Assembly: GCA_947643415.1 (NCBI GenBank)
Contig: CANRWA010000041.1
Coordinates: 1-32,450, forward strand
Direction: 5' to 3'
DNA length: 32,450 nt
From: an uncultured Clostridia bacterium
Lineage (GTDB): Bacteria; Bacillota; Clostridia; Lachnospirales; Lachnospiraceae
A program made the position numbers and the translations under genes. Positions within the stretch are counted from its first letter, which is position 1. Each line of letters begins with the position of its first letter. The notes under the pieces were generated by a model. The model searched no databases and was not told the DNA's origin. It saw only the letters and a list, made by a program, of their open reading frames with translations. Below, piece after piece: positions 11,924-32,450 of this stretch.

Positions 11924-13546
11924 CTATATTGTTTTGGTCACTTTTTGTTTTTCTGGCATCGGCACCGCAACTTCCGTCTCATCCCGGAATTGGAACTCCA
12001 GTATCTTGTTAGAGCATACGGTCACAGACTCAACCATAGAATTCCATAAGTCAAGATCAAATTCCTCCAGAATATTTCCACACTTCCGTAGCTCAGCAAG
12101 GCAGCGGCGGATTTGCTCTTTTCTGGCAGATTGTGACTGGATTTTTTTCTGCAGGTGCGCTATCTGCTTTTCGGCTTGTTTACATTCTGCATCCAGTTCA
12201 GCAAAGTGGCGGTTGTATGTTCCCTGGTCTTGGATATGCCTAGTGTTCTCCTCCATGTAGCGGCGGAGATTCCCCATTAGCTCCCCATGTTTTTTATCAG
12301 AGTCTTCCAACTGTTTTTCCAGACTGCTGGTATCAGCCAGTATTGGCATCATTTCTTCAAAGCGATCAATAAACTGCTTTTTATCGCCTAACACTTGATT
12401 AAACGCTTCCACGAAAGCAGTTTTGAGGACAGACTCATCTAAATTAGGCGTGGAGCAGAGGGTGCTATTCTGATATTTCTCGTTACACCGCCAGATATAT
12501 TTGCGGTGTTTACTGTTGCTGTGCCAGACTTTCCGGCCGTAATAGCCGCCACAGTCACCACAGATAATTTTAGCCGTAAATGGGCTGTTTCGGTGTAACT
12601 GCCTGCGCTTAGGGTGCCGCCTCTCAATTTCCTGCTGCACCAGCTCAAAGGTTTCCGGATCAATAATAGCCGGATGGGAGTTCTGGATATAATACTGCGG
12701 AACCTCCCCCTTGTTTTTCCTGATGCTTTTTGTGAGAAAATCTGCGGTATAGGTCTTTTGCAACAGGGCATCTCCTTTGTATTTTTCATTTCGAAGAATG
12801 CTCATAATGGTGGAGACGCTCCATTTAGTTTTGCCTGATGGCGTAGGTATTCCCTGCCCGGTAAGGTGATTTGCAATCGTACGGACAGTTTTTCCTTCCA
12901 GAAATAATCGGTAAATTTCACGGACAATTTCTGCTTCTTTCTCCACGATTTTAGGCAGACCATCCTCGCCCTTCTCATAGCCAAGAAAATTTTTGTATGC
13001 AAGGGAAAATTTGCCTTCTTCCATGCTGCGGCGTTTTCCCCAGGTAACATTCTCCGAAATGGAGCGGCTTTCTTCCTGTGCCAGGCTGCTCATAATCGTA
13101 ATCATTACCTCACCCTTTGCATCCAGGGTGTAAATATTCTCTTTTTCAAAATATACTTCTACTTTCTTTTCTTTGAGTTTGCGGACAGTGGTAAGCGTAT
13201 CTACTGTATTGCGGGCAAAGCGGCTGATTGACTTGGTAAGGATTAAATCAATTTTTCCAGCAAGCGCATCCGCCACCATGTGATTAAACCCTTCCCGTTT
13301 TCTGGTATTTGTGCCGGAGATGCCTTCATCCGTATATACACCGACAAACTCCCATTCCGGGTTGCTTTTGATGTGCCGGGTATAAAAATCCACCTGTGCC
13401 TCGTAGCTGGATAATTGTTCATCAGAATCCGTAGATACGCGGGCATATGCCGCCACACGCCGTTTTTGTCTGGTTTCCTCCGGTATAGTATTAAGCAGGC
13501 TGACCCGGCTTTCTATCTTTTGGATTTTTCTTGTTGGTGCTGCCAT
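11924..13546 (-). CDS. Large serine recombinase (TnpX-like), 540 aa
   Basis: This is a site-specific DNA recombinase that would integrate or excise an element through a covalent serine intermediate. The resolvase domain begins near residue 29 with RRVAAYARVSTDSDEQ, where Ser38 is the predicted nucleophile. Later Arg-containing motifs include SISRFARNTVDTL and SLAQEESRSISENV. The recombinase domain follows, then a zinc ribbon (CGDCGGYYGRK with a second Cys pair), and a long coiled coil around residues 400-490. This order is that of large serine integrases. Start ATG overlaps the stop of the second recombinase (TAATG), so the two are translationally coupled. It is the final gene of the minus-strand block, consistent with a position at the end of an integrated element. 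Confidence 0.93.
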   Translation of the reverse strand: MAAPTRKIQKIESRVSLLNTIPEETRQKRRVAAYARVSTDSDEQLSSYEAQVDFYTRHIKSNPEWEFVGVYTDEGISGTNTRKREGFNHMVADALAGKIDLILTKSISRFARNTVDTLTTVRKLKEKKVEVYFEKENIYTLDAKGEVMITIMSSLAQEESRSISENVTWGKRRSMEEGKFSLAYKNFLGYEKGEDGLPKIVEKEAEIVREIYRLFLEGKTVRTIANHLTGQGIPTPSGKTKWSVSTIMSILRNEKYKGDALLQKTYTADFLTKSIRKNKGEVPQYYIQNSHPAIIDPETFELVQQEIERRHPKRRQLHRNSPFTAKIICGDCGGYYGRKVWHSNSKHRKYIWRCNEKYQNSTLCSTPNLDESVLKTAFVEAFNQVLGDKKQFIDRFEEMMPILADTSSLEKQLEDSDKKHGELMGNLRRYMEENTRHIQDQGTYNRHFAELDAECKQAEKQIAHLQKKIQSQSARKEQIRRCLAELRKCGNILEEFDLDLWNSMVESVTVCSNKILEFQFRDETEVAVPMPEKQKVTKTI

Positions 13547-14877
13547 TATTTTTCTTCCCCCTTTCTTTTCTGTTCTCTAATTTTTTGCTGTCTTTCCCGT
13601 GCCGACTGTTTCATGGTGTCGCTCCAGCTTTCCCGCCGGGAAGGATTCTGCCAGGTTACTTCTTCCGTATGCCCATCTTGAAAGACATAGATTAAGGTAT
13701 TATGTCCCGGAACTTGGATTTCCCTGATATGCTCCAGCAGCATTGTCCGGTTCAGATCGTTTATTCCCAATAACTCTGAGGTTTTTGCAACGAGAATGGA
13801 TTCCGGGATCTGCTGGGAAGGGCAGGCCTCTTTGCCACAAGTATCAAAAGTACGGCAAATCCATGCGGCTTTTCTATACTTACTGCCTTGATGCAAGATA
13901 CGTCTGCGGTAGTGTTTGCCACATATCTTACAGCATAACAGACCTGTAAAAAGATACGGTTCAGACCTTGTGCTTGGATGATAAAACTTATTTGCACGCC
14001 ATTCCATTTCCTGCTGTACCCTCTCGAAGGTATCCTTCTCGATGATGGCCTCATGGCTGTCTTCCACATAATACATGGGAAGCTCACCATTGTTCCTGAC
14101 CGTCTTTTTACTGATGTGATCCATAGTATATGTTGTCTGTAATAGCAGGTTTCCAGTGTATTTGTCATTGCGGAGAATGTTATAGACGCTGGTTATACTC
14201 CACGGATTGCCCCGTTTAGTAGTAACCCCCATACTATTTAACTTTCTGACAATGGCACTTCTGCCCATGCCGCTGAGGAAGTCATCAAAAATCTGTTTTA
14301 CAATTGCCGCTTCCTCCGGGACTACCTGCAGCATACCATCTTCAAACCGGTATCCTAACATACTTCCACCATTCGGGATGCCATTCTCGAAATTTTTGCG
14401 GATGCGCCATTTAACGTTCTCGGAAACAGAGTGGCTTTCCTCCTGGGCAAACGATGCTAAGAGCGTCAGCATCAGCTCGCCATCTGTGCTTAAGGTGTGG
14501 ATATTTTCTTTTTCAAAATAAATATCAATCTCCAACGCTTTAAGCTCACGGGCAGTCTCCAACAGCGTTACAGTGTTGCGCGCTAGCCGGGTAATGGACT
14601 TAACGATTACCATGTCGATTTTCCCAGCCCGGCAATCGGTCAGCAATCTCTGAAATTCGGGGCGGTTTTCTTTTGTGCCCGTCATAGCCTCATCAGCATA
14701 AATCCCGGCAAACTCCCAATCACCCCGGCTGCCGATATAATTATTGTAATAACTGATCTGGGCAGACAGGGAGTGTATTTGCGCATCCTTACCGGAAGAC
14801 ACCCGGGCATAAGCTGCTACACGTTTCCGTTTGATGGATTGTACATTCTGGCTTTCTAATTTGGTTATTTTCCTCAT
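13546..14877 (-). CDS. Second large serine recombinase, 443 aa
   Basis: A second, shorter recombinase is encoded upstream of and coupled to the first. Start ATG 14877 follows GGAGGTGTCAT. The catalytic domain has VAAYARVSSGKDAQ, with the nucleophile expected at Ser27, and SITRLARNTVTLLE and SFAQEESHSVSENV as conserved motifs. A recombinase domain and a zinc ribbon (CKICGKHYRRR with a second Cys cluster) follow, but the long C-terminal coiled coil of the first enzyme is largely absent. Tandem serine recombinases occur in clostridial elements, where both may be needed for integration or one may set direction. The paralogues are clearly diverged, not a recent duplication. Confidence 0.93.
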   Translation of the reverse strand: MRKITKLESQNVQSIKRKRVAAYARVSSGKDAQIHSLSAQISYYNNYIGSRGDWEFAGIYADEAMTGTKENRPEFQRLLTDCRAGKIDMVIVKSITRLARNTVTLLETARELKALEIDIYFEKENIHTLSTDGELMLTLLASFAQEESHSVSENVKWRIRKNFENGIPNGGSMLGYRFEDGMLQVVPEEAAIVKQIFDDFLSGMGRSAIVRKLNSMGVTTKRGNPWSITSVYNILRNDKYTGNLLLQTTYTMDHISKKTVRNNGELPMYYVEDSHEAIIEKDTFERVQQEMEWRANKFYHPSTRSEPYLFTGLLCCKICGKHYRRRILHQGSKYRKAAWICRTFDTCGKEACPSQQIPESILVAKTSELLGINDLNRTMLLEHIREIQVPGHNTLIYVFQDGHTEEVTWQNPSRRESWSDTMKQSARERQQKIREQKRKGEEK

Positions 14878-14900
14878 ATGACACCTCCGTTTCTGAACCC

Positions 14901-14919
14901 CCACACACATCTATCACTC
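14901..14919. repeat. 19-bp direct repeat, copy 1
   Basis: CCACACACATCTATCACTC is identical to 15811-15829. On the minus strand it lies just upstream of the ribosome site of the second recombinase. Looser similarity extends to the right (TTGCG..AAAAAAGCAGG against TTGCC..TTAAAGCAAG). Confidence 0.7.
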
Positions 14920-19414: not shown

Positions 19415-19507
19415 GATCATCCTTCCTTTCTTAAAGTTGTTATAAAAATGTTTAAGTACCTGCTGGTTATAGTGACATGGCAGCATTTCTATGTGTTTAA
19501 AGCCTGC

Positions 19508-20479
19508 CTAGCACAGCATTTCCCGGTCGCCCCCATTCAGGATGAGATGTTCCAGCTCATCGCAGGTAATTATGGCAAAAAGTTTTGCCTGCTTGTCAAA
19601 AGCCTTTTTTAGATGTCGGATGAGTTTTTCTTTTCGGCTGTCACTCGGTACAATCCAAACGGTCAGCGGGAACATCTCTGATTCTTCCTGTTCCAGGCCT
19701 GAGCGGTAGTAGGCATGGTATTTCTGGCACTTTTCTATAATTTTTGCAGGGGACTCGGTGTCAAGGTCTACCTCGATAAAGTAACGGTCTTCATATTCTT
19801 CGGTTGTGGTTGCCGCATAGAGGTCTGGTTTGAGGGAGAGCGATACTCCGGCGCTGCTGTATGCCCGCCAGCACTCCGGTTCCAGCTGCAAAGCGGTAAT
19901 CTGGGGCTCATGTTCCCGGCAGATTTCTGTGAACTTTATGGCAATTTCCGCAACAGCTAAGGTGTGTGCTAGGAAAAAGGGAGACGGTTCACAGTGTCTC
20001 CGCACGGGAAACGCCCTGTTGTCGTGGAGACGGAGCAGGCGTTCGCCGGCGTGGGTCAGATGCCAGATGAATGAACCTGACCCGGCCCGCACTCCGCCAA
20101 TTCGCCGGGAGAGGCTGCTGATTAGCCCGAGTTCGTTCAGCTTTTTGAGGTTGCGGCTGGCTGCCCGCAGCCCGGCAGATAGGTTAGCGGCATCAGTAAA
20201 TAACAGTCTCCCTATCTGTCCGGTCATGAGGTAGCGGTACTGCTGCACTGCGGCGAGCAGCTGTCGGTCGCGCTCCCCCAGGCGGCTGTCAATTTCCAGC
20301 AGTTGTCTTTTTGATATGCGCCGGGGTGCTTGGCAGTCAGTAACAGGGGTGCCGCCCACGGCAGAAGAATCCGCAGCAGGTACGCTGAAGGAATCCCGGA
20401 CGTTAAACTGCGCAAAGTCCTGTATCCCGGGTGTTTCCGCTTGTGGTTTGCCGTCCCCATTCGTCAGTCGGTTCGTCAT
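19508..20479 (-). CDS. Replication-relaxation family protein
   Basis: The 323-residue protein starts at ATG 20479, which overlaps the coupling-protein stop (ATGA) and follows AAGGAAGAAACGACC. After a disordered 60-residue lead, an N-terminal winged helix is visible (LLAAVQQYRYLMTGQIGRLL, then NLKKLNELGLI). The C-terminal part contains LSLKPDLYA and YFIEVDLDTES followed by Lys and KYHAYY, a pattern reminiscent of PD-(D/E)xK nuclease folds (my reading). Members are found beside VirD4-like ATPases in plasmids and integrative elements and are thought to act in DNA processing at the transfer or replication origin. The family name rests on recognition, not a search. Confidence 0.8.
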   Translation of the reverse strand: MTNRLTNGDGKPQAETPGIQDFAQFNVRDSFSVPAADSSAVGGTPVTDCQAPRRISKRQLLEIDSRLGERDRQLLAAVQQYRYLMTGQIGRLLFTDAANLSAGLRAASRNLKKLNELGLISSLSRRIGGVRAGSGSFIWHLTHAGERLLRLHDNRAFPVRRHCEPSPFFLAHTLAVAEIAIKFTEICREHEPQITALQLEPECWRAYSSAGVSLSLKPDLYAATTTEEYEDRYFIEVDLDTESPAKIIEKCQKYHAYYRSGLEQEESEMFPLTVWIVPSDSRKEKLIRHLKKAFDKQAKLFAIITCDELEHLILNGGDREMLC

Positions 20480-22641
20480 GGTCGTTTCTTCCTTCCAATG
20501 TTAATGTCGCCAGAGTTTTCCTCAGCGGTGCTGTTGTTAGTGGTAAATATACTGAGGTATTCCTGTTCAATTTGTTCTGCCGAGACACCATAGGTGGCTT
20601 GGCTCTTTGCTTTAAGGTCAGCAGCGTCCCGAAAGGCTGGCGGTGGCAGTAAAGTCTTACCCTGCACCCAGCCAACATTCCTGCCATTCGATTGGAACGA
20701 GGTATAAATCTGGTAACGGGGCAGCGTCATAAAATCTTCGACTGTGAGTTCCGGTGCCATTGCCGCCATGTCTTTGGCGTCTCGGCTGTTAAGCCCGAAT
20801 ACGATTTTGTTCCTCGCATTCGCATCAACCCCGGAGCGGATGTTTAGCGGCAGTTGGTCGCGGTATTGGTGCGCCAGTGTCAGCCCGACACCCAGCCCTC
20901 GTGCTTGCGCCAAAGCGTCTGATAAATCGGTTGGTAATGACAAATAATCCTGCAATTCGTCAATGTAGATTTCTACAATATGACGCTTTTCTGCGGGAAT
21001 GCCCGCCCTCGACAGTGCCAGTGTCCAGGTTAAACCGATAATCAGGCTTCCTAACAATCTCGCTGATTCTCCGCCAGTTAACCCTTTGTTAAGAGGGATT
21101 AGAACGATCTTCCGTTTATAAAATAAGTCTGTCAGAGAAAACTTTGGCTTTGCCTGGCCTAAAATGTTCCGAAGTCCGGGACGTAAGGTCAGCTGGCGTA
21201 ATTTGTTTAGCACGGGAGAAATTTGCTGTCTTTTCTCAGTGTCGCGCAGAGCCTCAAACTGTTCCCAAAATGGGCGAAGCGCCATGCGGTCTTTGACTTT
21301 GCTTGTGATTCTGCGCCGGAAGCTCTCATCCGTCAGTAAGGGCAACAGCCATAAAAGAGTTGCGTTGTCCGTGTCTGTCAGAGTCAGGAGAGCTGCCGTT
21401 AGTACATCCTGGGTGTAAATTCCCCAACAGTCACTAAATATTTCTTTGAGGACGGAGAGGATAGCGTCCGCAATCAGGGCTGGATTGCCATAGTCCTTAA
21501 ACGCCAGCGGGTTGAACCCGCAGGGGCAGGAATCCGAGGGGTCGATAATTGCCACGTCCCCAGTGCGTTCTTCTGGAATCCGTTCCAAGATAGATGTAAT
21601 CAAGTCCGCTTTTGGATCAAGGACGAGTATGCTCCGTCCAGCCGTAATGTCTGCCAAAATCAGGTGCAGCATGGCAGTTGATTTGCCACTGCCGGTCGGA
21701 CCAATCAGATGGCAATGTTCCAAACTGTCTTTTGGAGATATACTGAGCTGCTTTGGGTTTATGGCATCCATACTGACAGCAAAACTGCGGTCGGTTTTCT
21801 GGTTGGTTGGATTTCTATACCAGTGGGGCGGAAGTGTAAGTTTTGGGTGCAAGCCCGGCGTTCCCGGCAGTTCTTCCTCACCAGCGGGGAGCAGGAGAAA
21901 ATTAGCTAACTCTTTTACTGATAATATTAGCGGGAAGTGCCAAGGCACATGGGCGGTGTTGAGGTCGGCTGGTTTGGCTGTGTCTGCATGGATGCGGACG
22001 CCAGCGGCTTCCAATATTTTGAATGCACTGATAATACTGTGCATCTGGGCATTTGCACTTTTTCCAGATGCACCAATGCGGATGACAGCCTGGAACGTGT
22101 GCTGTTCGGCTTTTTCTCTAACCGTTTTGCGGCTCTCGGCAGAGGCTTTCTGTACATCGCCAAGTAAGATTTGCAGCCAGGTAGCGTTTGGATCAGCCAG
22201 GTTGGCTGGCACTGGGGAGGGAGCGTAAGCCCGCCCCAGTACAATCTGTATTGCCATTTCCGTACCGCTTTTATCTTCCGTTAGCGCCGCCAGACCTGCC
22301 CGGATGACCGATTCTGTGACATCGGTTTTGAGGGAAAGCGTCGGGTGGCTGATTCTCAATTGACGGGCAGTAGTAACGGCAGTACGTTTTTCTTCGCCGG
22401 CTTCATGAAACTGAATATCGCCATGCGCTTTGACCGCCTCCTCTATATTTCTGATGTATCTCGCTGCGGCACCAAGCAGGTAGCTCACTTTTCCGTTTTG
22501 GCTGCGTATTTCCCAGAGGACTGCGCCCCGCGGTGATGACAATGCCGCCAAATGCGAGAGGGTTTCCCATACTGTTTCTAGTTTATAGGGTCTTGTCCAG
22601 ACCATCTCCCTCCAGACCAGTTCTTCAATTTGATGCTTCAA
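20476..22641 (-). CDS. VirD4/TraG-like conjugative coupling ATPase
   Basis: A FtsK/HerA-type ATPase of about 721 residues that would bring DNA to a transfer channel. Walker A is LIGPTGSGKSTAMLHL near residue 325, followed by LVLDPKAD. The Walker B region is VEIYIDELQDYLSLPTDL, and a following segment AQARGLGVGLTLAHQYRDQL is typical of VirD4-like proteins. The start is uncertain: TTG 22641 follows AAAGGAG by nine bases and gives LKHQIEELVW at the front; an ATG at 22686, inside the upstream gene, also has GGAGG ahead of it. The N-terminus lacks membrane helices, unlike classical VirD4, but the gene upstream encodes a two-helix membrane protein. No VirB4 or relaxase gene lies in this window. Confidence 0.9.
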   Translation of the reverse strand: MKHQIEELVWREMVWTRPYKLETVWETLSHLAALSSPRGAVLWEIRSQNGKVSYLLGAAARYIRNIEEAVKAHGDIQFHEAGEEKRTAVTTARQLRISHPTLSLKTDVTESVIRAGLAALTEDKSGTEMAIQIVLGRAYAPSPVPANLADPNATWLQILLGDVQKASAESRKTVREKAEQHTFQAVIRIGASGKSANAQMHSIISAFKILEAAGVRIHADTAKPADLNTAHVPWHFPLILSVKELANFLLLPAGEEELPGTPGLHPKLTLPPHWYRNPTNQKTDRSFAVSMDAINPKQLSISPKDSLEHCHLIGPTGSGKSTAMLHLILADITAGRSILVLDPKADLITSILERIPEERTGDVAIIDPSDSCPCGFNPLAFKDYGNPALIADAILSVLKEIFSDCWGIYTQDVLTAALLTLTDTDNATLLWLLPLLTDESFRRRITSKVKDRMALRPFWEQFEALRDTEKRQQISPVLNKLRQLTLRPGLRNILGQAKPKFSLTDLFYKRKIVLIPLNKGLTGGESARLLGSLIIGLTWTLALSRAGIPAEKRHIVEIYIDELQDYLSLPTDLSDALAQARGLGVGLTLAHQYRDQLPLNIRSGVDANARNKIVFGLNSRDAKDMAAMAPELTVEDFMTLPRYQIYTSFQSNGRNVGWVQGKTLLPPPAFRDAADLKAKSQATYGVSAEQIEQEYLSIFTTNNSTAEENSGDINIGRKKRP

Positions 22642-22666
22642 GAATGCCCACTCCTTTCTTCTCTTT

Positions 22667-22867
22667 CTACCATTTTCCCAAATCATCGTGTTTGTGCCTC
22701 CAAATACGGAAACCAATGATAATGGCAGTGACGATGATGGCGATGGTGAGCAATACTGGCCAGACCTCGAATAACCAATATGCAGCAGATTTTATGAGAT
22801 AGGCACTCAAAGCCAGCATAAAGGCGGTTTCTAGGATTTTGGTAATTAACCGTTTTGGTGGTTCCAA
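22667..22867 (-). CDS. Two-helix membrane protein preceding the coupling ATPase (66 aa)
   Basis: A TTG start at 22867 follows GGAGGTGTGATGC; an ATG four bases upstream is in another frame whose product is not membrane-like. Two hydrophobic helices, FMLALSAYLIKSAAYWLF (about 16-33) and VLLTIAIIVTAIIIGFRIW (38-56), end in a basic-acidic tail RHKHDDLGKW. The gene lies between the MT-A70 and coupling-ATPase genes with short gaps. It may supply the membrane anchor that the coupling ATPase lacks (inference). Confidence 0.65.
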   Translation of the reverse strand: MEPPKRLITKILETAFMLALSAYLIKSAAYWLFEVWPVLLTIAIIVTAIIIGFRIWRHKHDDLGKW

Positions 22868-22870
22868 GCA

Positions 22871-23467: not shown

Positions 23468-23490
23468 AGAATTTCTCCTTTCTTTTGGTT

Positions 23491-23525
23491 GGCTGCTTTG
23501 ACGCCCATTGAACCTCAAAGCAGCC
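23491..23525. other. Hairpin in the MT-A70 leader
   Basis: GGCTGCTTTG (23491-23500) and CAAAGCAGCC (23516-23525) form a perfect 10-bp stem with a 15-base loop, 24 bases upstream of the MT-A70 start. There is no T tract on the minus strand. Confidence 0.5.
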
Positions 23526-23605
23526 TGGTTCCCAAACATAAACAATAAAACGCTTTTAGGGCGGTGGGACACCCCTTAACAGAGGCGAGGAACCAATTAA
23601 GGCGC

Positions 23606-23634
23606 AACATAAAATATTGTTGTAATATCGTCAA
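23606..23634 (-). promoter_or_regulatory. Candidate sigma-A promoter of the MT-A70/transfer operon
   Basis: On the minus strand -35 TTGACG (23629-23634) and -10 TATGTT (23606-23611) are 17 bases apart. The -10 is weak (four of six). It would drive the genes from 23467 leftwards. The rest of the 23468-23725 gap shows AT-rich repeats but no gene. Confidence 0.45.
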
Positions 23635-23725
23635 TGATATGTTGACAATGACTTATTTTTTCCGCTTTTTACCGCCCTCTCTGCAACGGTAGGGGCTTTT
23701 ATGCCGCACTTTCTCTGACAGGGTG

Positions 23726-24506: not shown

Positions 24507-26603
24507 TTATTGCTCAGTTTTTTGGACTATTACGACTGATGGGTTTTCTATTAAGTCGTTATCAACTGTTGCCTGGCCCCAGTTGTAGATGAAGTTCTCA
24601 CCACAATCGAGGCTAGTATCAACAACCTTTGCCTTGAAGCGGATAAATGCATTACCGCCGTTTTGGCCATCAGCGCTACCAACGTAGCCACCGATGTTCA
24701 CGCCACGGGTCACAATGTCTCCATCCGGAGTCAGTACAGCCCATTGACCTTTGGTGCTGTAATTGTAAAGCAAGGTCGTGTTAGGAACATATTCAAGGTT
24801 GCCAGGTAGAATGTCGCGAATCATCACGTCGTTCTGGGTCTCGGTGCTGGTATTGTTGTATTCGATCTGGAATTCAACTTCCTCACCAATCTCTGCATCG
24901 ACAACTTCGCTCCATTCCTCGTCACCAAGTTTACGAACTTTCGTGGTAACTGTGTATTTGTCATAAATTACATCAATCCAGGCAGTGATTTCACTACTGT
25001 ATTGTGAACCACCAGGAATCTCACCGTTAAGCTTATCATAACCAATCAGCACGCCACCCTCTGCGGCCTTTAGTGCAATATCGTTGCTTAACTGCAAACC
25101 GTTTGCGCCTATGGAGTCATTGTGGATCATGGCGGTATCTGGTCTAAACTTCAAGTGAAAAGGGTTGCCTGTGTCGCTGGTAAATACCACACTGTCCCAG
25201 TATTTAGAGGGTGTTGCATTGCTTGATTCAATATACCCACGTACCGGAATCTGCGTATCTGAATATGAGGGGATGCTCAAAGCTGCTTTTGCATCCTTCG
25301 CCACAGCATTATATCCCTTATTGTTATTATTGCTGATGTAAAGTTTTATCATATATGACTCTGCATCTTCCACGTTGATGTAGTTACTTTCCCACGAACT
25401 GCTATCATCGGGATCAGTATCTGGTCGGCAAACGCTGACGAAGTCTTTTTCATCGCCTGGATAAATAGCCTTATAATCTCCGGAACTGTACTCCCCATCA
25501 ATCGAATTGAATACAATTTGATTGCCAAGTTTACCATATTTTACTTCGCTGGCTGTGTAACTGGAGCGTCCCCCCTCGTTGTCACCCCAGTCAGGCTCAA
25601 TATGCCCATTCATAATGTTTTCAGAATCAGAAGTATCGCTTGAATTTTCCCGAACCGATTCACGGCTATTATGTATAAAATACGATAATATCGTTGCTAC
25701 TGATGCCAGCGCTAATATCAGCAAGGCTACCTGAAATAAAATCCGGTGTTTCTTTATAAATACGCATAAAGAGTGCGTATCTGATGGCTTGTCATCAGGG
25801 TCGGTCGTAGGCTCATTGGTTGTTTCACCCGCATCTAAACCTCCTAGCGGTTCGATAGAAACTTCATCGTCTTCCAAATCATCATCAACAGACACAGGTT
25901 TATTGAGCTCCTTATTATCCTCTGGAATGTTTAGTGGTTCAACAATGGCCTTGTCATTTTCCGAAACAACAGTAGCCTCAACGATGTGTTTATTATCCTC
26001 CAAATTAAGTGCAATACATTCGGGGAAGTCCGATGGCAGTTCTTCAGGGAGGCCATTCGGAAATTTTTTCTCCAGCTCATCAAAGACAGCCGTTGATAAC
26101 CCAAGTTTCTTATTGAGACCATCTGTTTCCGTATCCAGTTGTTTTGCTAACGCTTTTATTATTTTATCCTCAAAATCTGGAAGCCTGCTGTTTGGATCGC
26201 TCCACCCGGATACAGTAGTTCTAGCTCTCTCAAATTTGACATTTGGATTATCTTCTGCATATTTTTCGCGACGTTCTCCTACATTTAAATTCTTATATCC
26301 TGGCAAAATGCCATATACCGCAAAAAGCAGAAGACGGTCACGGATGATATCCACGTATTTTTCCAACAGTCTTATGACATATGCACTGTAAAACGTTTGA
26401 TATAACTCTTCTAATTTAACAGAATCATTCGCCCGATTGCCCAATGCTAACCTATTGAGACGCACCACATCGACATGATTCCCGCTTTCTCTTTCAAGTA
26501 ACAGGGCTAATTCGTGCATATCTGCTTCTGATTTACGAACTTGAGTCAAGCGAGCTTTAATCTTTTCGACAGCTGTGGGTGCGTTGTTCTTAGTTTCTCC
26601 CAT
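24507..26603 (-). CDS. Single-pass surface protein with cytosolic N-terminal domain and DUF11-like exterior
   Basis: The 698-residue protein starts at ATG 26603 (MGETKNN), seven bases after GGAGGG. Residues 1-190 are a helix-rich cytosolic domain without known motif. An acidic Pro/Thr/Asp linker follows (about 210-280). One transmembrane helix lies near residue 290-312 (ILFQVALLILALASVATIL). The outer 380 residues are beta-rich: YGKLGNQIVFNSIDG, NGYNAVAK-type strands, SIPSYSDTQIPVRGYI, then a DUF11-like domain (EFQIEYNNTSTETQNDVMIR, LPGNLEYVPN). The outer part resembles surface proteins seen in gut bacteria and Saccharibacteria (from memory). Inside-out layout suggests a sensor or signalling role. 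It has its own promoter and terminator. Confidence 0.8.
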   Translation of the reverse strand: MGETKNNAPTAVEKIKARLTQVRKSEADMHELALLLERESGNHVDVVRLNRLALGNRANDSVKLEELYQTFYSAYVIRLLEKYVDIIRDRLLLFAVYGILPGYKNLNVGERREKYAEDNPNVKFERARTTVSGWSDPNSRLPDFEDKIIKALAKQLDTETDGLNKKLGLSTAVFDELEKKFPNGLPEELPSDFPECIALNLEDNKHIVEATVVSENDKAIVEPLNIPEDNKELNKPVSVDDDLEDDEVSIEPLGGLDAGETTNEPTTDPDDKPSDTHSLCVFIKKHRILFQVALLILALASVATILSYFIHNSRESVRENSSDTSDSENIMNGHIEPDWGDNEGGRSSYTASEVKYGKLGNQIVFNSIDGEYSSGDYKAIYPGDEKDFVSVCRPDTDPDDSSSWESNYINVEDAESYMIKLYISNNNNKGYNAVAKDAKAALSIPSYSDTQIPVRGYIESSNATPSKYWDSVVFTSDTGNPFHLKFRPDTAMIHNDSIGANGLQLSNDIALKAAEGGVLIGYDKLNGEIPGGSQYSSEITAWIDVIYDKYTVTTKVRKLGDEEWSEVVDAEIGEEVEFQIEYNNTSTETQNDVMIRDILPGNLEYVPNTTLLYNYSTKGQWAVLTPDGDIVTRGVNIGGYVGSADGQNGGNAFIRFKAKVVDTSLDCGENFIYNWGQATVDNDLIENPSVVIVQKTEQ

Positions 26604-26633
26604 ATATAATCCCTCCACATGGATCTTTCTATT

Positions 26634-26733: not shown

Positions 26734-27330
26734 TTAGAAACCTATAAATTCTGTAATTGTAACAATCGTGTTGTCATTATGAAAAATATCGTGGCTATCA
26801 TCCTTCCAACGGTCTTTGATTCTAAACTGGAGACGCCGATGACTATTGCCAAAATCTTCTTCAAGTATCGTAGCCGTCGCAGTGTATGTCAGATGATAGG
26901 TTGGTGTGATGCCCGATTTAGATTGTGGTCCTTCGAAGATAAGATTCAAAAATTCATAACCACAAATCCAAAAGTTGACTCTGTCATCCTTTGCCTCGTT
27001 CACATAGAATAACTGCACACCGCCAGCAAAAACCTTGAAACCGCTGAGTTCCCAATCCGGATGATTCCCCATCATAATTTCAATTATGTTGTCAGCAAAT
27101 TCATTTCCAGTGTTTTCCTGATCTTTTGGCAATTCGAAACAATCTGAACCAATATAGCGGAGCAATCTTTTCCATGCTTCTTCCGAATTATCTCTTTTTG
27201 CCATTTTCATTTGGATTGGCTGCCGTAAATTAGTTTGGCGGCAAGCTTCGAAGCAGTCAAAACTGCCATTGTTTCCAGAGACAATATAGCCGTTTCCTGC
27301 TAATTCAATTTTATAAGTCAGTTCTCTCAT
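26734..27330 (-). CDS. Hypothetical soluble protein (198 aa)
   Basis: ATG 27330 (MRELTYKIELAGNGYIV) follows GGAGGGGGAAG; a longer frame starts in the untranslated leader. The protein is soluble, beta-rich, and ends in NDNTIVTITEFIGF. There is no signal peptide or recognised motif. It is a single-gene unit with a strong sigma-A promoter, an operator-like palindrome at the transcription start and its own terminator. That suggests inducible expression. I assign no function. Confidence 0.7.
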   Translation of the reverse strand: MRELTYKIELAGNGYIVSGNNGSFDCFEACRQTNLRQPIQMKMAKRDNSEEAWKRLLRYIGSDCFELPKDQENTGNEFADNIIEIMMGNHPDWELSGFKVFAGGVQLFYVNEAKDDRVNFWICGYEFLNLIFEGPQSKSGITPTYHLTYTATATILEEDFGNSHRRLQFRIKDRWKDDSHDIFHNDNTIVTITEFIGF

Positions 27331-27490
27331 TCTTCCCCCTCCAATCTTTATATTTATAAGAATAATCGCATCATCACATATCCACATAGAATATGCGAAC
27401 TTTGCGATTATTCAAAAGATGTCAGGAAAGAAGGCTACCGAATGGCGCAAGAATACAGAATAATATTGAGGTTTCTTAATGTACTAAATG

Positions 27491-27506
27491 GTTAGTTTTA
27501 ACTAAC
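27491..27506. promoter_or_regulatory. Operator-like palindrome GTTAGTT-TT-AACTAAC
   Basis: Perfect seven-base arms with a two-base centre sit just downstream of the -10 box, covering the predicted first transcribed bases. A repressor bound here would block the promoter. No adjacent regulator gene is evident. Confidence 0.6.
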
Positions 27507-27513
27507 TTATTCT

Positions 27514-27542
27514 ATTGTAGCACACATGTTTGTTTTTGTCAA
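27514..27542 (-). promoter_or_regulatory. Strong sigma-A promoter of the 198-aa gene
   Basis: On the minus strand -35 TTGACA (27537-27542, perfect) and -10 TACAAT (27514-27519, five of six) are separated by 17 bases. The expected start lies near 27507. The leader from there to the ATG at 27330 is about 177 bases, long and without a gene. Confidence 0.8.
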
Positions 27543-27552
27543 TGGTTTTTAT

Positions 27553-27568
27553 GCTTTTTCGCATATTT
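27553..27568 (+). repeat. Left copy of flanking direct repeat of the IS30 element
   Basis: GCTTTTTCGCATATTT here and GCTTTTCGCATATTT at 29266-29280 differ by one T. They flank the insertion sequence a few bases outside its inverted repeats, so they are likely an imperfect target duplication. Confidence 0.55.
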
Positions 27569-27693
27569 CCTAAATTGCAAAAGTAAATTCTACTGTCTTT
27601 TTTCCTGATGGAAGTTACCTCTGCACAGGTTGAATTTAATTCTGCATATATATTATGATGTTCCTGCCTCCGACAGCAGTGGAAGGAGACATC

Positions 27694-29001
27694 ATGAGTA
27701 AATATATTCCTGGTAACCATAAACATCTTACCGCTTCTGACAGGCTTTACATAGAACGTGCCCTGAATGACGGTATCTCATTCAAAGAGATTGCACGCCA
27801 TCTCTGCAAAGACCCAAGCACGATATCCAAAGAGGTCCGTGCACACCGCCTGTCCGATTACTATCCGGGAAGAGGGCTCTTCCTGAATGCCAAAAATTTT
27901 TGTGTCCACCGTTTCCATTGCCAAAAGAAAAATGTCTGTGGAAAGATTATCCTTTGCGATATCAAATGTGCTTCCTGCCCTTCATGCAACCAGCACTGCA
28001 AGGATTTTGTAAGGGAACGCTGCAACAGGCTTGACCGGGCTCCGTATGTCTGTAATGGATGTGATAAGGGACATGTACGCTGCACCATCCCTCATAAGTA
28101 TCACTATGATGCACTCTTTGCAGACCGCAGATACCGGGAAACCCTCCGGGATTCCAGATCCGGTCTCCATCTCTCCAAAAAGGAGCTCCGTCACATTGAT
28201 GCAGTAGTTACTCCTCTAATCTGGCAGGGACATTCCCCTTACCAGATTGTTGTGGAACATCCGGAGCTTGGACTTTCCGTCCGTTCCATCTATCAATACA
28301 TAGAACTCGGACTGCTTACCGGCCGCAACATCGACCTGAAACGGAAAGTTAAATTTAAAGCCCGCAGGTGTCATAAATCACAGATTACTGACCGAGAAGT
28401 GTTCCATGGCCGGCTGTACAGTGATTTCCAGCAGCTTCCGCCTACACATGTGGTTGAAATGGATACGGTGAAATCCTCCCGTGACTCCAAAAAATGTATC
28501 CTTACATTCTATTTCCGGGATGAAAAACTGCTTCTCGCCTATCTTTTAAACCGGTGTACCAAAGGAGCCGTCCGTGCTGTTTTTGACCGGCTTGAAAAAC
28601 GGCTTGGCACGATAACCTTCCGTATCTTATTTGAAACAGTCCTGACCGACCGGGGTGGGGAGTTTGGAGACCCGGAAGCCTTGGAAACAGGCATGGATGA
28701 TTACCAACGTACCAGTATTTATTATTGTGATCCCATGCGCAGCGGGCAAAAGGGTGGCATAGAAAATGTTCATACAAAGCTGCGGGAAATACTTCCGAAA
28801 GGCACCAGTTTCGAGCACCTGACACAATGGGATCTGAATTTAATCGTAAACAATATCAACTCTGTTCCCAGACAGAGCCTGCTCAGACTTACCCCATACC
28901 AGAACGCAAAGGAAAACTTCGATATGGATGTCCTGTTAGCACTTCAGCTCAAGCCGGTTGACCCTGACAAAATCAATCTGACACCTGAGCTGATTAAGTA
29001 A
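27694..29001 (+). CDS. IS30-family transposase
   Basis: The 435-residue transposase starts at ATG 27694 (MSKYIPGNHKHL) after GGAAGGAGACATC. The N-terminal HTH is SFKEIARHLCKDPSTISKEV at about residues 28-47. A Cys/His-rich segment follows (CVHRFHCQKKNVC, CASCPSCNQHC), which is unlike classical IS30 and typical of a Firmicutes subgroup. The DDE residues are visible: Asp in VVEMDTVKSS, Asp in LTDRGGEFGD, and Glu in GGIENVHTKLREILPKG. The reading frame is uninterrupted, so the enzyme should be active. It would cut and join the element ends on both sides. Confidence 0.95.
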   Translation: MSKYIPGNHKHLTASDRLYIERALNDGISFKEIARHLCKDPSTISKEVRAHRLSDYYPGRGLFLNAKNFCVHRFHCQKKNVCGKIILCDIKCASCPSCNQHCKDFVRERCNRLDRAPYVCNGCDKGHVRCTIPHKYHYDALFADRRYRETLRDSRSGLHLSKKELRHIDAVVTPLIWQGHSPYQIVVEHPELGLSVRSIYQYIELGLLTGRNIDLKRKVKFKARRCHKSQITDREVFHGRLYSDFQQLPPTHVVEMDTVKSSRDSKKCILTFYFRDEKLLLAYLLNRCTKGAVRAVFDRLEKRLGTITFRILFETVLTDRGGEFGDPEALETGMDDYQRTSIYYCDPMRSGQKGGIENVHTKLREILPKGTSFEHLTQWDLNLIVNNINSVPRQSLLRLTPYQNAKENFDMDVLLALQLKPVDPDKINLTPELIK

Positions 29002-29249
29002 ACTATAAATCCAATCAAAAGAATCTGCTGTCAGGCAGCATAGCTTTACATCTTCATAAAAAACAAATCCAGTGGGTAGAATTTAGTCCTGCACACGACA
29101 ATTCATACCGGCTTGTTTGCCATACCCTTTTTTAGAATTTTTGCTTGGATCTGGTTATATTATAATCCATTCTTCTCTGTTATGGTTTAAAAAATATGAA
29201 AAAATCAGCATTTTTTAACGTGCAGTAGAATTTACTTCTGCACTGGAAG
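29002..29249 (+). other. 3' untranslated part of the IS element
   Basis: About 250 bases between the transposase stop and the right end. It contains a small TGCTG/CAGCA hairpin near 29030, AT-rich sequence and the tandem end motifs. No gene is seen. Confidence 0.5.
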
Positions 29250-29263
29250 TTACTTTTGCAATT

Positions 29264-29450
29264 AAGCTTTTCGCATATTTTGCCATCATTTTTGTAAGGA
29301 CAATCTAATATTTTTACCCTTTTTCGTTCCCTTTCCATTCTTCTTTGTTCTTCTTTGTTCTTTTCCAGGCAATGAGGTTTTATTTTGTTATCATCTATCT
29401 AAGCAGCAAGAATACCTTCTGCAAACCAAGAAGGAAGTGAGGTGGTCGCC
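29264..29450. other. AT-rich gap with tandem TTCTTTGTTC repeat
   Basis: This stretch holds the right flanking repeat (29266-29280) and two head-to-tail copies of TTCTTTGTTC near 29339-29358. It should contain the promoter of the leader/sigma transcript, but I could not fix a convincing -35/-10 pair. Confidence 0.4.
29266..29280 (+). repeat. Right copy of flanking direct repeat of the IS30 element
   Basis: GCTTTTCGCATATTT matches the left copy at 27553-27568 except for one T. Confidence 0.55.
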
Positions 29451-29522
29451 ATGACCTATGCCCGTCCACCCCCCTGGATAGGGGTTAGGACATTTAATCA
29501 TCGAGAATATTTAGAAATCTAA
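29451..29522 (+). CDS. 23-codon leader ORF with Pro-Pro-Pro
   Basis: ATG 29451 follows GAGGTGGTCGCC. The peptide reads MTYARPPPWIGVRTF followed by NHREYLEI and stop. Three consecutive prolines are a known ribosome-stalling motif. The Pro codons overlap a small CCCC/GGGG hairpin. It is too short to be a typical protein and lies about 200 bases upstream of a sigma-like gene with a structured leader, so it is probably a regulatory leader peptide. Confidence 0.5.
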   Translation: MTYARPPPWIGVRTFNHREYLEI

Positions 29523-29649
29523 AAACAAAATATCGTTAGCCTGATTTGCAATAGGGCTTAAGGATACAAATATCGTCTATTTTCACCAAAAACATTGGTG
29601 GGATAGCAGTATCGGTACCCTCTCCTTATTGCGCCCAATTAGGCTCGTG

Positions 29650-29677
29650 AGGTCTGTGTATCGAGCTGCACAGGCCT
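29650..29677 (+). terminator. Terminator-like hairpin upstream of sigma-like gene
   Basis: AGGTCTGTG (29650-29658) pairs with CACAGGCCT (29669-29677) with one G-T pair, followed by TATTTTATCC. It lies about 45 bases upstream of the sigma-like gene and could stop transcription before it. Confidence 0.5.
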
Positions 29678-29685
29678 TATTTTAT

Positions 29686-29713
29686 CCTTTCCACTGCCTA
29701 TCAGGCGGAAAGG
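29686..29713 (+). promoter_or_regulatory. Hairpin sequestering the ribosome site of the sigma-like gene
   Basis: CCTTTCC (29686-29692) pairs with GGAAAGG (29707-29713), which is the ribosome-binding sequence; GCCT/AGGC (29696-29706) extends the stem. Translation initiation should be low unless the hairpin is opened or disrupted. Confidence 0.6.
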
Positions 29714-29721
29714 ACAGAGTT

Positions 29722-30216
29722 ATGAAATTTAATTATGGATATGAAAGAAACAAGATGGAGAAAGAGTTTGAATGGATGAAGCAGTTATTCCTTGAAGCAG
29801 GTATGTCAGATGAAGCAATAGAAGAAATACATCGTATGTTGCTTGACGAAGTAAATAATAAAAGAAAGTATTATACGCATAATCAGTCGCTTGATATTAC
29901 AAATACTTCTGAAAATGAAAAATACGACGAAAGCTGGTCGCCATATTATGAGAAACATCTCGAGCAGTTTAGTGTTTATCAATACGAAATCAGCGAATGG
30001 GGACGCTATGACTGGATTGAGGATTTAGATACGCCTGATGTAATTTTGTGGGCTAAAAAACTCTCCGACACAGACAAAGAGCTCATCACTTACTTAATGG
30101 TAGAAAAATTGCAGAAACAGGAAGTGGCAACTATTCTAGGATGCAGCCCCTCTGCAGTCTCTAACCGCCTGAATCGTATAAAGAAACAACTGAAGAAAAT
30201 TTTACCACTAGACTAA
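29722..30216 (+). CDS. Sigma-70-like regulator of integrative-element type (164 aa)
   Basis: ATG 29722 (MKFNYGYERNK) lies eight bases after GGAAAGG. The C-terminal 45 residues form a region-4-type helix-turn-helix: KQEVATILGCSPSAVSNRLN, then RIKKQLKKIL. The first 60 residues (MSDEAIEEIHRMLLDEVNN) match the front part of sigma-like proteins common in Tn916/Tn1549-type elements (from memory). Region 2 is not obvious, so it may be a transcriptional activator rather than a full sigma factor. Its target promoters are not apparent. It is the only plus-strand gene besides the transposase and the leader ORF. Confidence 0.75.
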   Translation: MKFNYGYERNKMEKEFEWMKQLFLEAGMSDEAIEEIHRMLLDEVNNKRKYYTHNQSLDITNTSENEKYDESWSPYYEKHLEQFSVYQYEISEWGRYDWIEDLDTPDVILWAKKLSDTDKELITYLMVEKLQKQEVATILGCSPSAVSNRLNRIKKQLKKILPLD

Positions 30217-30249
30217 AATTCTATCAGCCAGTAGTTGCGCACTAAATAT

Positions 30250-30288
30250 GCCCATGAGGATAACTTTAACGAGTTCATCCTCATGGGC
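30250..30288. terminator. Intrinsic terminator after the sigma-like gene
   Basis: GCCCATGAGGAT (30250-30261) pairs with ATCCTCATGGGC (30277-30288), with inner AACT/AGTT. On the plus strand TCTTTCTCTTTT follows. It also faces the minus-strand cassette transcript. Confidence 0.75.
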
Positions 30289-30304
30289 TCTTTCTCTTTT
30301 ACAT

Positions 30305-30562
30305 CTACTTCGCACCACAGCGGACGGCAAAACCGTTTCCGCGGTCGTTATAATGTTGTGGGTCGACAGTGTTAGAACTGAAACTAAGATTGTAAGTATT
30401 GTCAGTCCAAAGTATAGTACGCGCCCAATAGATACCGCTTGAACCAACGTTACGCAATGAACCGTAGCTGTAATTATAGTTGCCCGTGAGCTCAAACCCG
30501 AGCGGCGCGCTACGTAACTGGGTAGAACCGGAGGAGGAGTTAGGTAGCGCGCCGCTCCCCCT
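30305..30562 (-). pseudogene. Start-less C-type-lectin-fold fragment, cassette B
   Basis: The minus-strand frame is open for 85 codons from the stop of cassette A to TAG 30305, without ATG or GTG near its beginning. It reads LRSAPLGFELTGNYNYSYGS, then SSGIYWARTI, NLSFSSNTVDPQHYN and DRGNGFAVRC. The pattern LRSAPL.F..(S/T)G, W, NL.F, V.PQ..N and GFAVRC is that of FISUMP/C-type-lectin-like variable domains in surface proteins. Asn is frequent at positions that vary between family members. It shares 20 identical bases over GFAVRC with cassette A. It is either a gene remnant, a silent recombination cassette or a template. Confidence 0.6.
30500..30557. repeat. GC-rich 14-bp inverted repeat between cassettes
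   Basis: GAGCGGCGCGCTAC (30500-30513) and GTAGCGCGCCGCTC (30544-30557) are perfect arms with a 30-base loop; TAACT/AGTTA extend the stem past one mismatch. One arm is the coding sequence of the conserved RSAPL segment of cassette B, and the other is its inverted copy. Confidence 0.8.
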
Positions 30563-30763
30563 TCACCCCTCCCGTACTACACAGCGGACGGCAAAACCGA
30601 AGCCGCGAGAACCGCCGCTTTGGGGTAAAACATAAGGAGCGTGCGTATCAAAAATACGGCCACGCGTACTAAGCCACCAGGTGCCATTTGTTATACGAAC
30701 ATATAGGTGGCCGTAAGAGTGATTGTACAGGCCCGTACGGAGAAAGTTGCACCGTTTCCCTCC
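30563..30763 (-). pseudogene. Start-less C-type-lectin-fold fragment, cassette A
   Basis: The frame is open for 66 codons between TGA 30764-30766 and TGA 30563. It starts GGKRCNFLRTGLYNHSYGHL, passes through TNGTWWLSTR and ends SRGFGFAVRCVVREG. It aligns with cassette B from F..TG.YN.SYG.L to PQ....RG.GFAVRC, with differences concentrated at scattered positions as in variable lectin domains. A promoter and a GAGGAGG sequence sit just upstream, yet no start codon is in this frame. The neighbouring ATG and GTG are in other frames and give short unrelated peptides. Confidence 0.6.
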
Positions 30764-30778
30764 TCATTCATGCTTATG

Positions 30779-30808
30779 ATTATAGCATACTTTAACTTAT
30801 TTTTACAA
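30779..30808 (-). promoter_or_regulatory. Extended -10 promoter reading into the cassettes
   Basis: On the minus strand -35 TTGTAA (30803-30808) and -10 TATAAT (30779-30784) are 18 bases apart, with TGC in front of the -10. It lies after the terminator of the gene to the right, so cassettes A and B would form their own transcript of roughly 500 bases. Confidence 0.65.
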
Positions 30809-30819
30809 TTTTACAAAGA

Positions 30820-30845
30820 AATAGCTCGCATTCCTGCGAGCTATT
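30820..30845 (-). terminator. Intrinsic terminator of the secreted-protein gene
   Basis: AATAGCTCGCA (30820-30830) and TGCGAGCTATT (30835-30845) form an 11-bp stem with a four-base loop, followed on the minus strand by TTCTTTG. Confidence 0.75.
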
Positions 30846-30871
30846 CATCTTTACAACCAACAACTAAGGGG

Positions 30872-32080
30872 TTACCAGTCATCTCTGCTCGCATTGGCAC
30901 GATACACTCTTATGCCAATCAGCTCGCCCGAAGGCCCAACAAATTGATCTGCTATCGCAACAAATTCTATGAGTTCCTGCTTAATTTGTTTCGCCTTAAC
31001 GATTTTCTTAACTTTCTTTTTATTCTTGTACCGTTTACGATACCGGACAAAAGCCTCCTCATACCTACATCCAACGTATTCGCTAGACGAATCAATCTCT
31101 CCGTCATGATAAATTGCATACTGAACTTTACCACTACGGGTTCTCATTTTTACTCTTACTGCGACACGACGATAGTTGGTTGGCCCTTTGATACACTCAA
31201 ATTCACCAATGTCATATACCGCGCATATTTTGCAAATTGCATGCGCAACATAAAGTGCTCGCCCATAAGCCTTTCTCGCATATAAATCTTTGAAACTAAT
31301 GCGGCGCCCCGTTGATGTCCTAGAAATTGAAGCCTTCGTCCACGGACTAGTCTCCGTATCACCGATTTCCAACAAGATTCGCGCCTTCATGGTATCAGAT
31401 AAGTCACGGAGTTTTGTTTCTCGCAAATAACGTTGCAACTCTAAACTTATTGTAGGGGCATCCTGTATATACCTAGCATACTCCGCTAGCCGTTCCGCCC
31501 CAAGCCGGTCCTGAGCATGTACCTTTGTAGTGTCACTCGTTAACCACGCATATGAATATTCAGCTTCATTGACAATATTATCAATATATTTCTTATACTC
31601 ATCAAACCTTCTTTCCGCAAACTTAATACCATAGATATACTCCTCGCAGTAAGCCTTTTTTACAAGAAACTTCGTATACTTTCCGGATTTTTTCGGTTTA
31701 TTGTCCTGTTTGTCAAAGCCAGCGCTTCCATAATAGCCAGAATCCTGTGCACATATCGGAAACACATCGAACCCCACATCCGTCTGCTTTGCCACCTTCT
31801 TGGTCAGCTTCTGAAACTTCTTATAGAAGCTTTTCTCGCCACCCTTAAACCGGATCGTAAAAGTTCTCCCTTTCAAAAGCTGCTGATGAACCTTTTTGGC
31901 AGTCTTCTGATCAATCTTTTTGACCGTTATGACCTTAGTTTTCGCCTTTGCCTCCACCTCTGTCTGCTGGCAAACTACGCTACCTACCAAAATAAGTCCA
32001 AAGGTTAACAGTAATCCAGCCGCCATTGTTAATACGGAGCCGGGAAACAACTTGCTACAAAAATCATTTTTTACCTTCAT
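30872..32080 (-). CDS. Secreted hypothetical protein (402 aa)
   Basis: ATG 32080 follows GGAGGGATTATC. A signal peptide is clear: basic MKVKNDFCSK, then hydrophobic VLTMAAGLLLTFGLILVGSV, with probable cleavage near VEAKA at about residue 45. The Cys at the end of the hydrophobic stretch lacks a proper lipobox. The mature part is basic, with many Lys and Tyr. A segment around AYGRALYVAHAICKICAVYD followed by RRVAVRVKMRTRSGKVQ and YAIYHDGEID recalls the layout of transglutaminase-like folds, but the catalytic Cys and His are not at the usual sites. The sequence is AT-rich like its right flank. Confidence 0.7.
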   Translation of the reverse strand: MKVKNDFCSKLFPGSVLTMAAGLLLTFGLILVGSVVCQQTEVEAKAKTKVITVKKIDQKTAKKVHQQLLKGRTFTIRFKGGEKSFYKKFQKLTKKVAKQTDVGFDVFPICAQDSGYYGSAGFDKQDNKPKKSGKYTKFLVKKAYCEEYIYGIKFAERRFDEYKKYIDNIVNEAEYSYAWLTSDTTKVHAQDRLGAERLAEYARYIQDAPTISLELQRYLRETKLRDLSDTMKARILLEIGDTETSPWTKASISRTSTGRRISFKDLYARKAYGRALYVAHAICKICAVYDIGEFECIKGPTNYRRVAVRVKMRTRSGKVQYAIYHDGEIDSSSEYVGCRYEEAFVRYRKRYKNKKKVKKIVKAKQIKQELIEFVAIADQFVGPSGELIGIRVYRANASRDDW

Positions 32081-32166
32081 GATAATCCCTCCTGTCTGTA
32101 AAGGTACAAATATTTATCACATCAAACAAAATATATAAAGTTAATGCGTCTAATTTTGTTGCCCTG

Positions 32167-32245
32167 ATTTTGCTTTGGAAATATAGTCAAGGTCGGGCTA
32201 ACAGCCCGTTACATTTAGCCTTGACGAGATTTCCGTAAGCAAAAT
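32167..32245. ncRNA. Long imperfect hairpin, candidate structured RNA or binding site
   Basis: Four nested pairs fold symmetrically: ATTTTGC (32167-32173) with GCAAAAT (32239-32245), GGAAAT with ATTTCC (32177-32182, 32229-32234), GTCAAGG with CCTTGAC (32186-32192, 32219-32225) and CGGGCT with AGCCCG (32194-32199, 32203-32208). Confidence 0.4.
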
Positions 32246-32413
32246 TAAAATATAAGAAAAAAATGCGCAAAAATAAAAAATCAAAATACGGAAACACAAA
32301 ACCCAACAAAAATCTGAACGCGCGCTTGCGCGCATTTGATAAAATCTGTTCGGGAACATCACATATTACAAAAAGTTTCCTTATTAAATGTCTTCCTTGG
32401 ATCACATATAAAA

Positions 32414-32434
32414 ATCCGCCTTCACAGGTCGGAT
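32414..32434 (-). terminator. Terminator of a gene beyond the right edge
   Basis: ATCCGCCT (32414-32421) and its near complement AGGTCGGAT (to 32434) form a short stem with a TTTTTAT tract on the minus strand. This implies a minus-strand gene just outside the window. Confidence 0.55.
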
Positions 32435-32450
32435 GTAACACTTTATCAAT

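Follow-up and report, generated by a model that had tools for sequence, protein, structure and literature searches.

The window analysed here, 32,450 nucleotides of DNA, is the entire contig C41 of assembly G000, an uncultured bacterium of the Lachnospiraceae. Two cassettes follow one another on its minus strand. The first, c2 (30566..30763), is a start-less C-terminal segment of the variable-repeat type, with 66 codons from stop to stop; its conserved part (30566-30748) reads NFLRTG...GFAVRCVVREG up to the stop codon. The second, c1 (30308..30562, with its stop at 30305-30307), is also start-less, comprises 85 codons and extends at its 5' side further into the domain (SGSTQLRSAPLGFELTG...GFAVRCGAK, then the stop). 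A single stop codon lies between the two frames. No in-frame ATG, GTG or TTG is found in c2, and c1, which has no ATG either, offers just one internal TTG (codon 36), in agreement with a preliminary description, made from the letters alone, of two open frames lacking a proper start. The same description had both frames end in GFAVRC and a stop, which is incorrect, as the termini just given show. Its statement that the fragments align to each other was confirmed by BLASTP, with 24 identities over 63 positions (E 1e-8), and by a 28-nt 3' anchor repeat, present as direct repeats on the minus strand at 30580..30607 in c2 and at 30316..30343 in c1, that is 89% identical between the two copies. From its position, the anchor of c2 may be the equivalent of the 3' end (IMH-like) of the repeats of a diversity-generating retroelement (DGR).

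Hairpin-capable inverted repeats are located 3' of both cassettes. The one downstream of c2 (30500..30557; arms 30500-30519 and 30538-30557, 20 nt, 95% complementary, z -2.8) overlaps the 5' part of c1. The one downstream of c1 (30250..30288; arms 30250-30261 and 30277-30288, 12 nt, 100% complementary, z -6.0) may simply be a terminator that c1 has in common with the convergent sigma-like gene. The 3' flank of a variable cassette from G790, a Saccharibacteria assembly considered below, folded no better than shuffles (z 0.46, one cassette). A promoter-like site with the proposed TTGTAA-18-TATAAT layout does exist on the minus strand (30779..30808; 10/12 match), but the 1.4-kb region has four such sites against 2.6 +/- 1.3 in shuffles, so that the idea of a dedicated promoter has no support above the chance level. 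Positions 30872-32080, on this strand and upstream of both cassettes, code for a putative secreted protein of 402 aa with no convincing family match.

Profile A2, which contains c1 and not c2, recovered c2 in the whole genome (E 2.9e-5), and c1 alone as the query retrieved cassettes of the Lachnospiraceae MAG G306 (E 3.8e-9). Matches of profile A5 to c1 and c2 had E values of 2.8e-28 and 2.3e-22, which are inflated because A5 contains both. When c2 was compared with L013, a separate record, we found an exact common 5' anchor of 18 nt (AACTTTCTCCGTACGGGC) and a nearly identical 3' tail, with diverged interiors in between. As far as sequence can tell, fixed ends around a diverged interior is the pattern of a variable cassette, and conserved cassette boundaries recur among cassettes elsewhere. 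For the C-type lectin fold proposed in the preliminary description, a search of the PDB with the cassette profile gave one weak match (8q4e HbP1, E 0.012). Searches of Pfam, NCBIfam and PHROGs with the cassettes alone gave nothing convincing (one PHROGs match at E 5.7), the window cassettes had no match to the FISUMP domain models, and Rfam and tRNA searches of the window returned nothing useful.

The window also codes, on the minus strand, for two large serine recombinases (11924..14910; Resolvase, Recombinase and zinc ribbon) and for a TrwB/VirD4-like coupling protein (20476..22716). The latter belongs to a backbone, shared with an element of G306, on which an MT-A70 methylase is also found; the two backbones are 67-74% identical at the nucleotide level, in pieces within 11852-23646. 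The contig thus has both of the components expected of an integrative conjugative element (ICE), a recombinase of the site-specific kind and a coupling protein for conjugation, and from the recombinases and the TrwB-like protein we regard the contig as ICE-like, that is, as a putative ICE whose transfer is presumed. In G306 the related element lies between iorA and a shortened iorB on one side and a paaK-like gene on the other (names assigned by eye), and L013 has a similar backbone (by eye). A 703-aa protein with a DUF11-type repeat is encoded at 24507..26618 (minus strand), and its relatives accompany cassettes: one is found in L013 (66% identity), and others, judged by eye, in G306 and on contig C2 of G790 (G790:C2). 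An IS30-family transposase (27655-29001) adjoins the cargo region.

We considered whether the contig may not come from a Lachnospiraceae genome, or whether the element was misjoined to foreign DNA. At 4.6 Mb, G000 is twice the size of the sole congener seen (2.3 Mb), its contamination is 3.54%, and cassettes are rare in the family, where the domain was found in 5 of 397 genomes, its own included. Related cassette-bearing elements, however, were found in independent records, namely G306, L013, L019 and the isolate Mediterraneibacter agrestimuris DSM 111629 (L021), and we consider an artefact of either kind to be quite improbable. In the phylum sample, profile A2 found only G000 itself among 398 genomes.

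Within G000 the cassettes appear to stand by themselves. The preliminary description had considered, among other options, an expressed surface gene elsewhere and had named the lack of a related full-length gene in the genome among the observations that would speak against its reading; our search of the assembly revealed neither a full-length relative nor a further copy, profile A5 matching the c1 and c2 sites only at E <= 1. It had also called for a search for a reverse transcriptase (RT). DGR-type RTs with the motif GNQTSQ do occur in the genome, at L054 (G000:C1, ~2459-2998) and L056 (C52, ~25114-25728), but they lie beside unrelated proteins ending in RPALHINL/RPAVHLNL, and RT searches of the whole assembly gave no match on C41. 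Because of these unrelated neighbours, L054 and L056 were rejected as the RTs to which the window cassettes belong, even if they could still act on them in trans. At L056, two short repeats with equal spacing, between the gene and a region beyond the RT, would fit a DGR separate from the cassettes.

In named genomes we detected 24 loci, 18 of which come from a single Saccharibacteria MAG (CANBEI, G790). Saccharibacteria are tiny bacteria that live on other bacteria. A whole-genome search of G790 gave 87 cassette matches at E <= 0.01, and a search of its relatives, to which G795-G853 were assigned as kin by that search itself, gave cassettes in 29 of 60 genomes, G790 included; G824 has 23. Single-sequence scans of collections of genome contigs and of viral contigs were unproductive, as were profile A2 in viral contigs, tblastn against plasmids and phages, and blastn of the right arm against plasmids; profile A4 in viral contigs returned only the L013 record again. 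The sequence of G790 was read in part (26 contigs, three of them partial; 536,742 bases of ~0.9 Mb), and the cassette-class and template counts that follow cover that part.

Full-length relatives of the cassettes carry a FISUMP domain, and it is the last ~65 residues of this domain that the cassettes match. One such relative, in G790:C59, passes both TIGR02145 (65.5 bits) and PF09603 (53.8 bits), and the cassettes can be aligned to its C-terminal end; another, in G790:C10, is below both cut-offs. A PDB search with a full-length relative was unproductive. Two classes could be recognised among 88 matches. In the template class (22/88), a stretch rich in asparagine codons is followed by a conserved trailer resembling CGGTGCCGATCTT; members of the variable class (50/88) are flanked by GATTIVQ and/or LYPGSA; the other 16 belong to neither. 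The exact trailer was counted 18 times in G790, five times in G818, three times in the isolate G791, twice in G306 and once each in G028, G792, G793 and G794. It was absent from G000, G262, G057, G807, G824 and G802, and a reversed control pattern gave no match in any of the 14. Although ORFs of at least 120 codons cover 83% of the G790 sequence, 63 of 70 cassettes are mainly outside them. Sixteen pairs of G790 cassettes are neighbours within 700 bases, 10 of them convergent, as compared with a mean of 6.2 and a maximum of 13 in 500 random placements. One template together with two variables was found in each of G306, G790:C2, L017 and L019.

That c1 and c2 are silent donors, used by gene conversion to alter an expressed full-length FISUMP surface gene, would follow the style of antigenic variation known from the silent cassettes of pilS and vlsE. 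The lack of start codons, the presence of several copies in relatives, the fixed ends around a variable interior and, again in relatives, a 5' flank that resembles full-length FISUMP sequence are all compatible with such a role. In G000, however, no full-length relative that might receive the donated sequence was found, and in G790 only 2 of the 87 matches are within frames of at least 300 codons, both FISUMP-type and of a different subtype. We consider this role unlikely.

We then looked at how templates and variables differ. In 19 same-locus template-variable pairs from RT loci of G790 relatives (the partner being the variable with the fewest non-A mismatches to the template, and L129 and L155 being a single locus counted twice), 354 of 982 template adenines were changed, but only 15 of 2336 other bases. 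The pair at L146 goes against this trend (3/44 A, 7/136 non-A). Two dispersed pairs behaved in the same manner as the majority: between template C15:9973 and variable C20:10261, 17 of 48 adenines and none of 135 other bases differ, and between template C35:427 and variable C16:11454, 9 of 45 and 1 of 144. A wider comparison, of 47 variables with the nearest of 22 templates (the 16 unclassed copies and three shorter than 170 nt were left out of the 88, and a few of those used are identical between loci), gave changes at 1015 of 2137 adenines and 1685 of 6500 other bases, as against 212/998 and 588/3025 in a control of each template with its nearest template. In the part of the sequence read, a template that differs at no more than 7% of non-A sites was found for only 3 of the 47 variables. 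Non-A changes between the 22 templates occur at rates of 0.19, 0.105 and 0.361 at codon positions 1, 2 and 3; this avoidance of positions 1 and 2 indicates that the encoded peptide is under constraint, even though the templates lack start codons.

The RTs at such loci, which lie next to adenine-rich template copies, have the motif IGNx[S/T]SQ in 24 of 28 printed sequences, and one more has GAMTSQ; the exceptions are L134, L136 and L147. We take this motif, of the general form GxxxSQ, to be the signature of DGR-type RTs. G790 itself codes for one such enzyme (C5:39606-40823, E 8e-172). A template repeat in the same orientation follows at C5:41035, 211 nt past the RT stop. An initial search with PF00078 had pointed to a Drt2-like protein on C21 as the only RT of G790, a view overturned by the DGR-RT profile match on C5; the C21 protein (3076-4428, L088) resembles the defence RT Drt2 (PADLOC, E 5.3e-91). 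The DGR-RT profile also identified DGR-type RTs in G818, G807 and G802. It gave no match in G824, with its 23 cassettes, and none or weak ones (best E 5.9e-5) in the carriers G306, G791, G792, G793 and G794. A different DGR-type RT, at L145 (G818:C22 13458-14441), has a frame that opens with an N-rich, template-like stretch (NHWASTENSSNNAWNVNFGSGNFNNNNKYN). In relatives of the Saccharibacteria assembly, the related cassettes are DGR variable repeats. The suggestion in the preliminary description that a retroelement diversifies such domains holds for these related cassettes, where adenine-specific changes are found at DGR-type RT loci, but the window has no template match.

Many of the templates are preceded by a structured leader. 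The upstream regions of 21 templates could be aligned, with 37 predicted pairs, 22 of which show compensatory change. In four named helices, both partners vary in 20 of 25 pairs, and 89.1% of the cells pair, as opposed to 31-46% when the alignment is slid; none of 500 shuffles reached any of five measures. Rfam gave no match at E <= 0.1 for three template-bearing loci. In the 537 kb of G790, a model of the leader gave 19 matches with scores of 133-169 bits; 18 of these arise by construction, since the model was trained on 21 templates, 18 from that part of G790; variable cassettes and sequences elsewhere scored no more than 27 bits. Matches outside the training set were found in G794 (L172, 123 bits), G818 (L177, 77 bits) and G807 (L182, 36 bits), L005, L017 and L021 being training sequences and L019 and L173-L176 repeating training sequences or near-copies of them. 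Weak matches (13-20 bits) lie just upstream of templates at the RT loci L155, L144 and L159. In G306:C12 (L005 13899-14105), a shortened template RNA gene, again outside the training set, has a leader of 83.5 bits (13899-14069) and the trailer, with a scrap of the repeat in between, and looks as though the template had been deleted. The G790 system is a dispersed one, with one DGR-type RT, many stand-alone templates with a folded leader and dozens of mostly intergenic, start-less variables. The preliminary description had offered silent cassettes or an RNA template as roles for the window pair. Relatives do have variable copies without a start as well as RNA templates that stand alone, but no template RNA of the kind modelled was found in the window: at E <= 0.05 there was no leader, and with filters off the best score in 27000-32450 was 5.5 bits, for a model that, like the trailer motif, derives from a subtype other than that of the window cassettes.

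The nearest of 47 N-rich copies differs from c1 at 39% and from c2 at 41% of non-A sites. As no template matches either cassette, adenine mutagenesis of c1 and c2 is suggested by membership of the family only. c1 was rejected as the template of c2 because their non-A bases differ. Since the assembly yielded neither a template nor a cognate RT nor a full-length gene, we consider it probable that c2 and c1 are stranded DGR variable-repeat cassettes, the 3' ends of FISUMP genes, carried as ICE cargo and now a silent remnant, recipient or donor. They would represent the ends of genes for FISUMP-domain surface proteins, lacking the N-terminal part and the start. The pair would have arrived on an element carrying both templates and variables, and would be stranded in G000, in whose assembly neither cognate template nor RT nor full-length gene was found. 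Rewriting or expression would occur only once a matching template and RT, or the N-terminal part of a gene, is brought in, whether in trans or through recombination.

It is also possible, if less probable, that the two cassettes have arisen by ordinary decay, as what is left of FISUMP genes that were gained by horizontal transfer and lost their 5' part, their frames staying open by chance and owing to codon make-up. The missing start, the failure to find a partner gene and a promoter at chance level would all be accounted for, and by the logic of the sequence itself the frames stay open cheaply, because a change of adenine to any base in AAY codons creates no stop. The sharp 5' boundary shared by c2 and L013, the recurrence of such boundaries elsewhere and the sparing of codon positions 1 and 2 by non-A changes between templates argue against decay, at the level of the family rather than of the window pair alone.

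A small tyrosine recombinase is found repeatedly near the variables of related elements. This 190-aa protein, with similarity to DNA invertases (tested for L101), is encoded at L101 3977-4549, L005 4820-5392 and L165 1875-2447. In G790:C2 the gene is convergent to a variable cassette, as is a similar gene in G262, and DNA matching it adjoins cassettes in L017, L019, L021 and L022. In the R64 shufflon, the precedent here, Rci acts on pilV. A shufflon-like arrangement in which the small recombinase shuffles start-less C-terminal segments would be in line with these positions and with the convergent orientation of 10 of the 16 close G790 pairs. No such recombinase, however, is beside c1 and c2 in the window ORF list, and site-specific recombination leaves the adenine-restricted differences in relatives unexplained; for the window pair we find this mechanism very unlikely.

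Our preferred reading, of stranded variable-repeat cassettes, has the pair travel on an element, and related elements in Lachnospiraceae, the isolate included, and on one G790 contig carry templates and variables. The element of G306 resembles that of G790:C2 with 82-97% identity in the backbone and 92-97% in the recombinase and one cassette region, other cargo being 70-76% identical. The element in question, at G790:C2 3704-26000 (L100, L101), has Lachnospiraceae relatives, and the contig also bears a prophage-like region. Because glyA-like and glyS-like genes (by eye) are found on the same contig, the element seems to lie within a Saccharibacteria chromosome, although the contig could be a chimera. 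Cross-phylum transfer of the ICE is therefore possible. Going further, it can be imagined, doubtful as we regard it, that the whole forms a distributed system in which, in some Saccharibacteria, one DGR-type RT serves many independent, structured template-RNA genes and several dozen start-less recipients dispersed between genes, an ICE family shuttles both to Lachnospiraceae lacking the RT, and rewritten cassettes are there recombined into surface genes.

The usual picture of a DGR is that of a compact locus with one RT, one template and one or a few target genes. The relatives of the window cassettes share with the DGR of Bordetella phage BPP-1 a variable repeat, adenine-specific transfer and an RT of the GxxxSQ type, and both window cassettes are followed by hairpins. 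Unlike BPP-1, however, the window holds recipients only, recipients in the relatives are often start-less and intergenic, and many G790 templates are separate structured RNA genes distant from the single RT. Homing in BPP-1 requires the IMH and a downstream hairpin (PMC3240598). Other reports describe remote DGR targets in Thiohalocapsa PB-PSB1 and Treponema denticola, with diversification in trans inferred by their authors (PMC10907252, PMC4891356), and also trans activity and several DGRs in CPR (PMC10907252). In the passages concerned the remote targets are genes, whereas in the present case a single genome has start-less cassettes by the dozen together with many independent template RNAs, and they are found on an ICE-like element as well. 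The cellular DGRs of CPR/Patescibacteria form DGR clade 2 and show adenine bias, as given in the portion of PMC8144416 used here; they occur in the same bacterial group as ours, an assignment made by group and not by RT clade, and that portion does not describe dispersed templates without an RT or start-less recipients. With FISUMP/Fib_succ_major (TIGR02145, PF09603) the likeness is the alignment to the C-terminal ~65 residues, the difference being that the cassettes alone match no family convincingly. The R64 shufflon and silent antigenic cassettes similarly consist of start-less C-terminal segments in several orientations, but they lack the adenine-restricted differences of the relatives, and no recombinase lies beside the window pair. 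Among the titles and abstract openings listed by searches of an open-licence library, none described dispersed start-less recipients together with stand-alone template RNAs.

In contrast to compact DGRs, then, the recipients of this family are start-less and dispersed, and each template is an RNA gene of its own; the covarying leader makes the template family searchable. This arrangement raises the question of how a variable end without a beginning gets into a protein. The link to an ICE, if true, would provide a route by which hypervariable modules pass between Saccharibacteria and gut Firmicutes.
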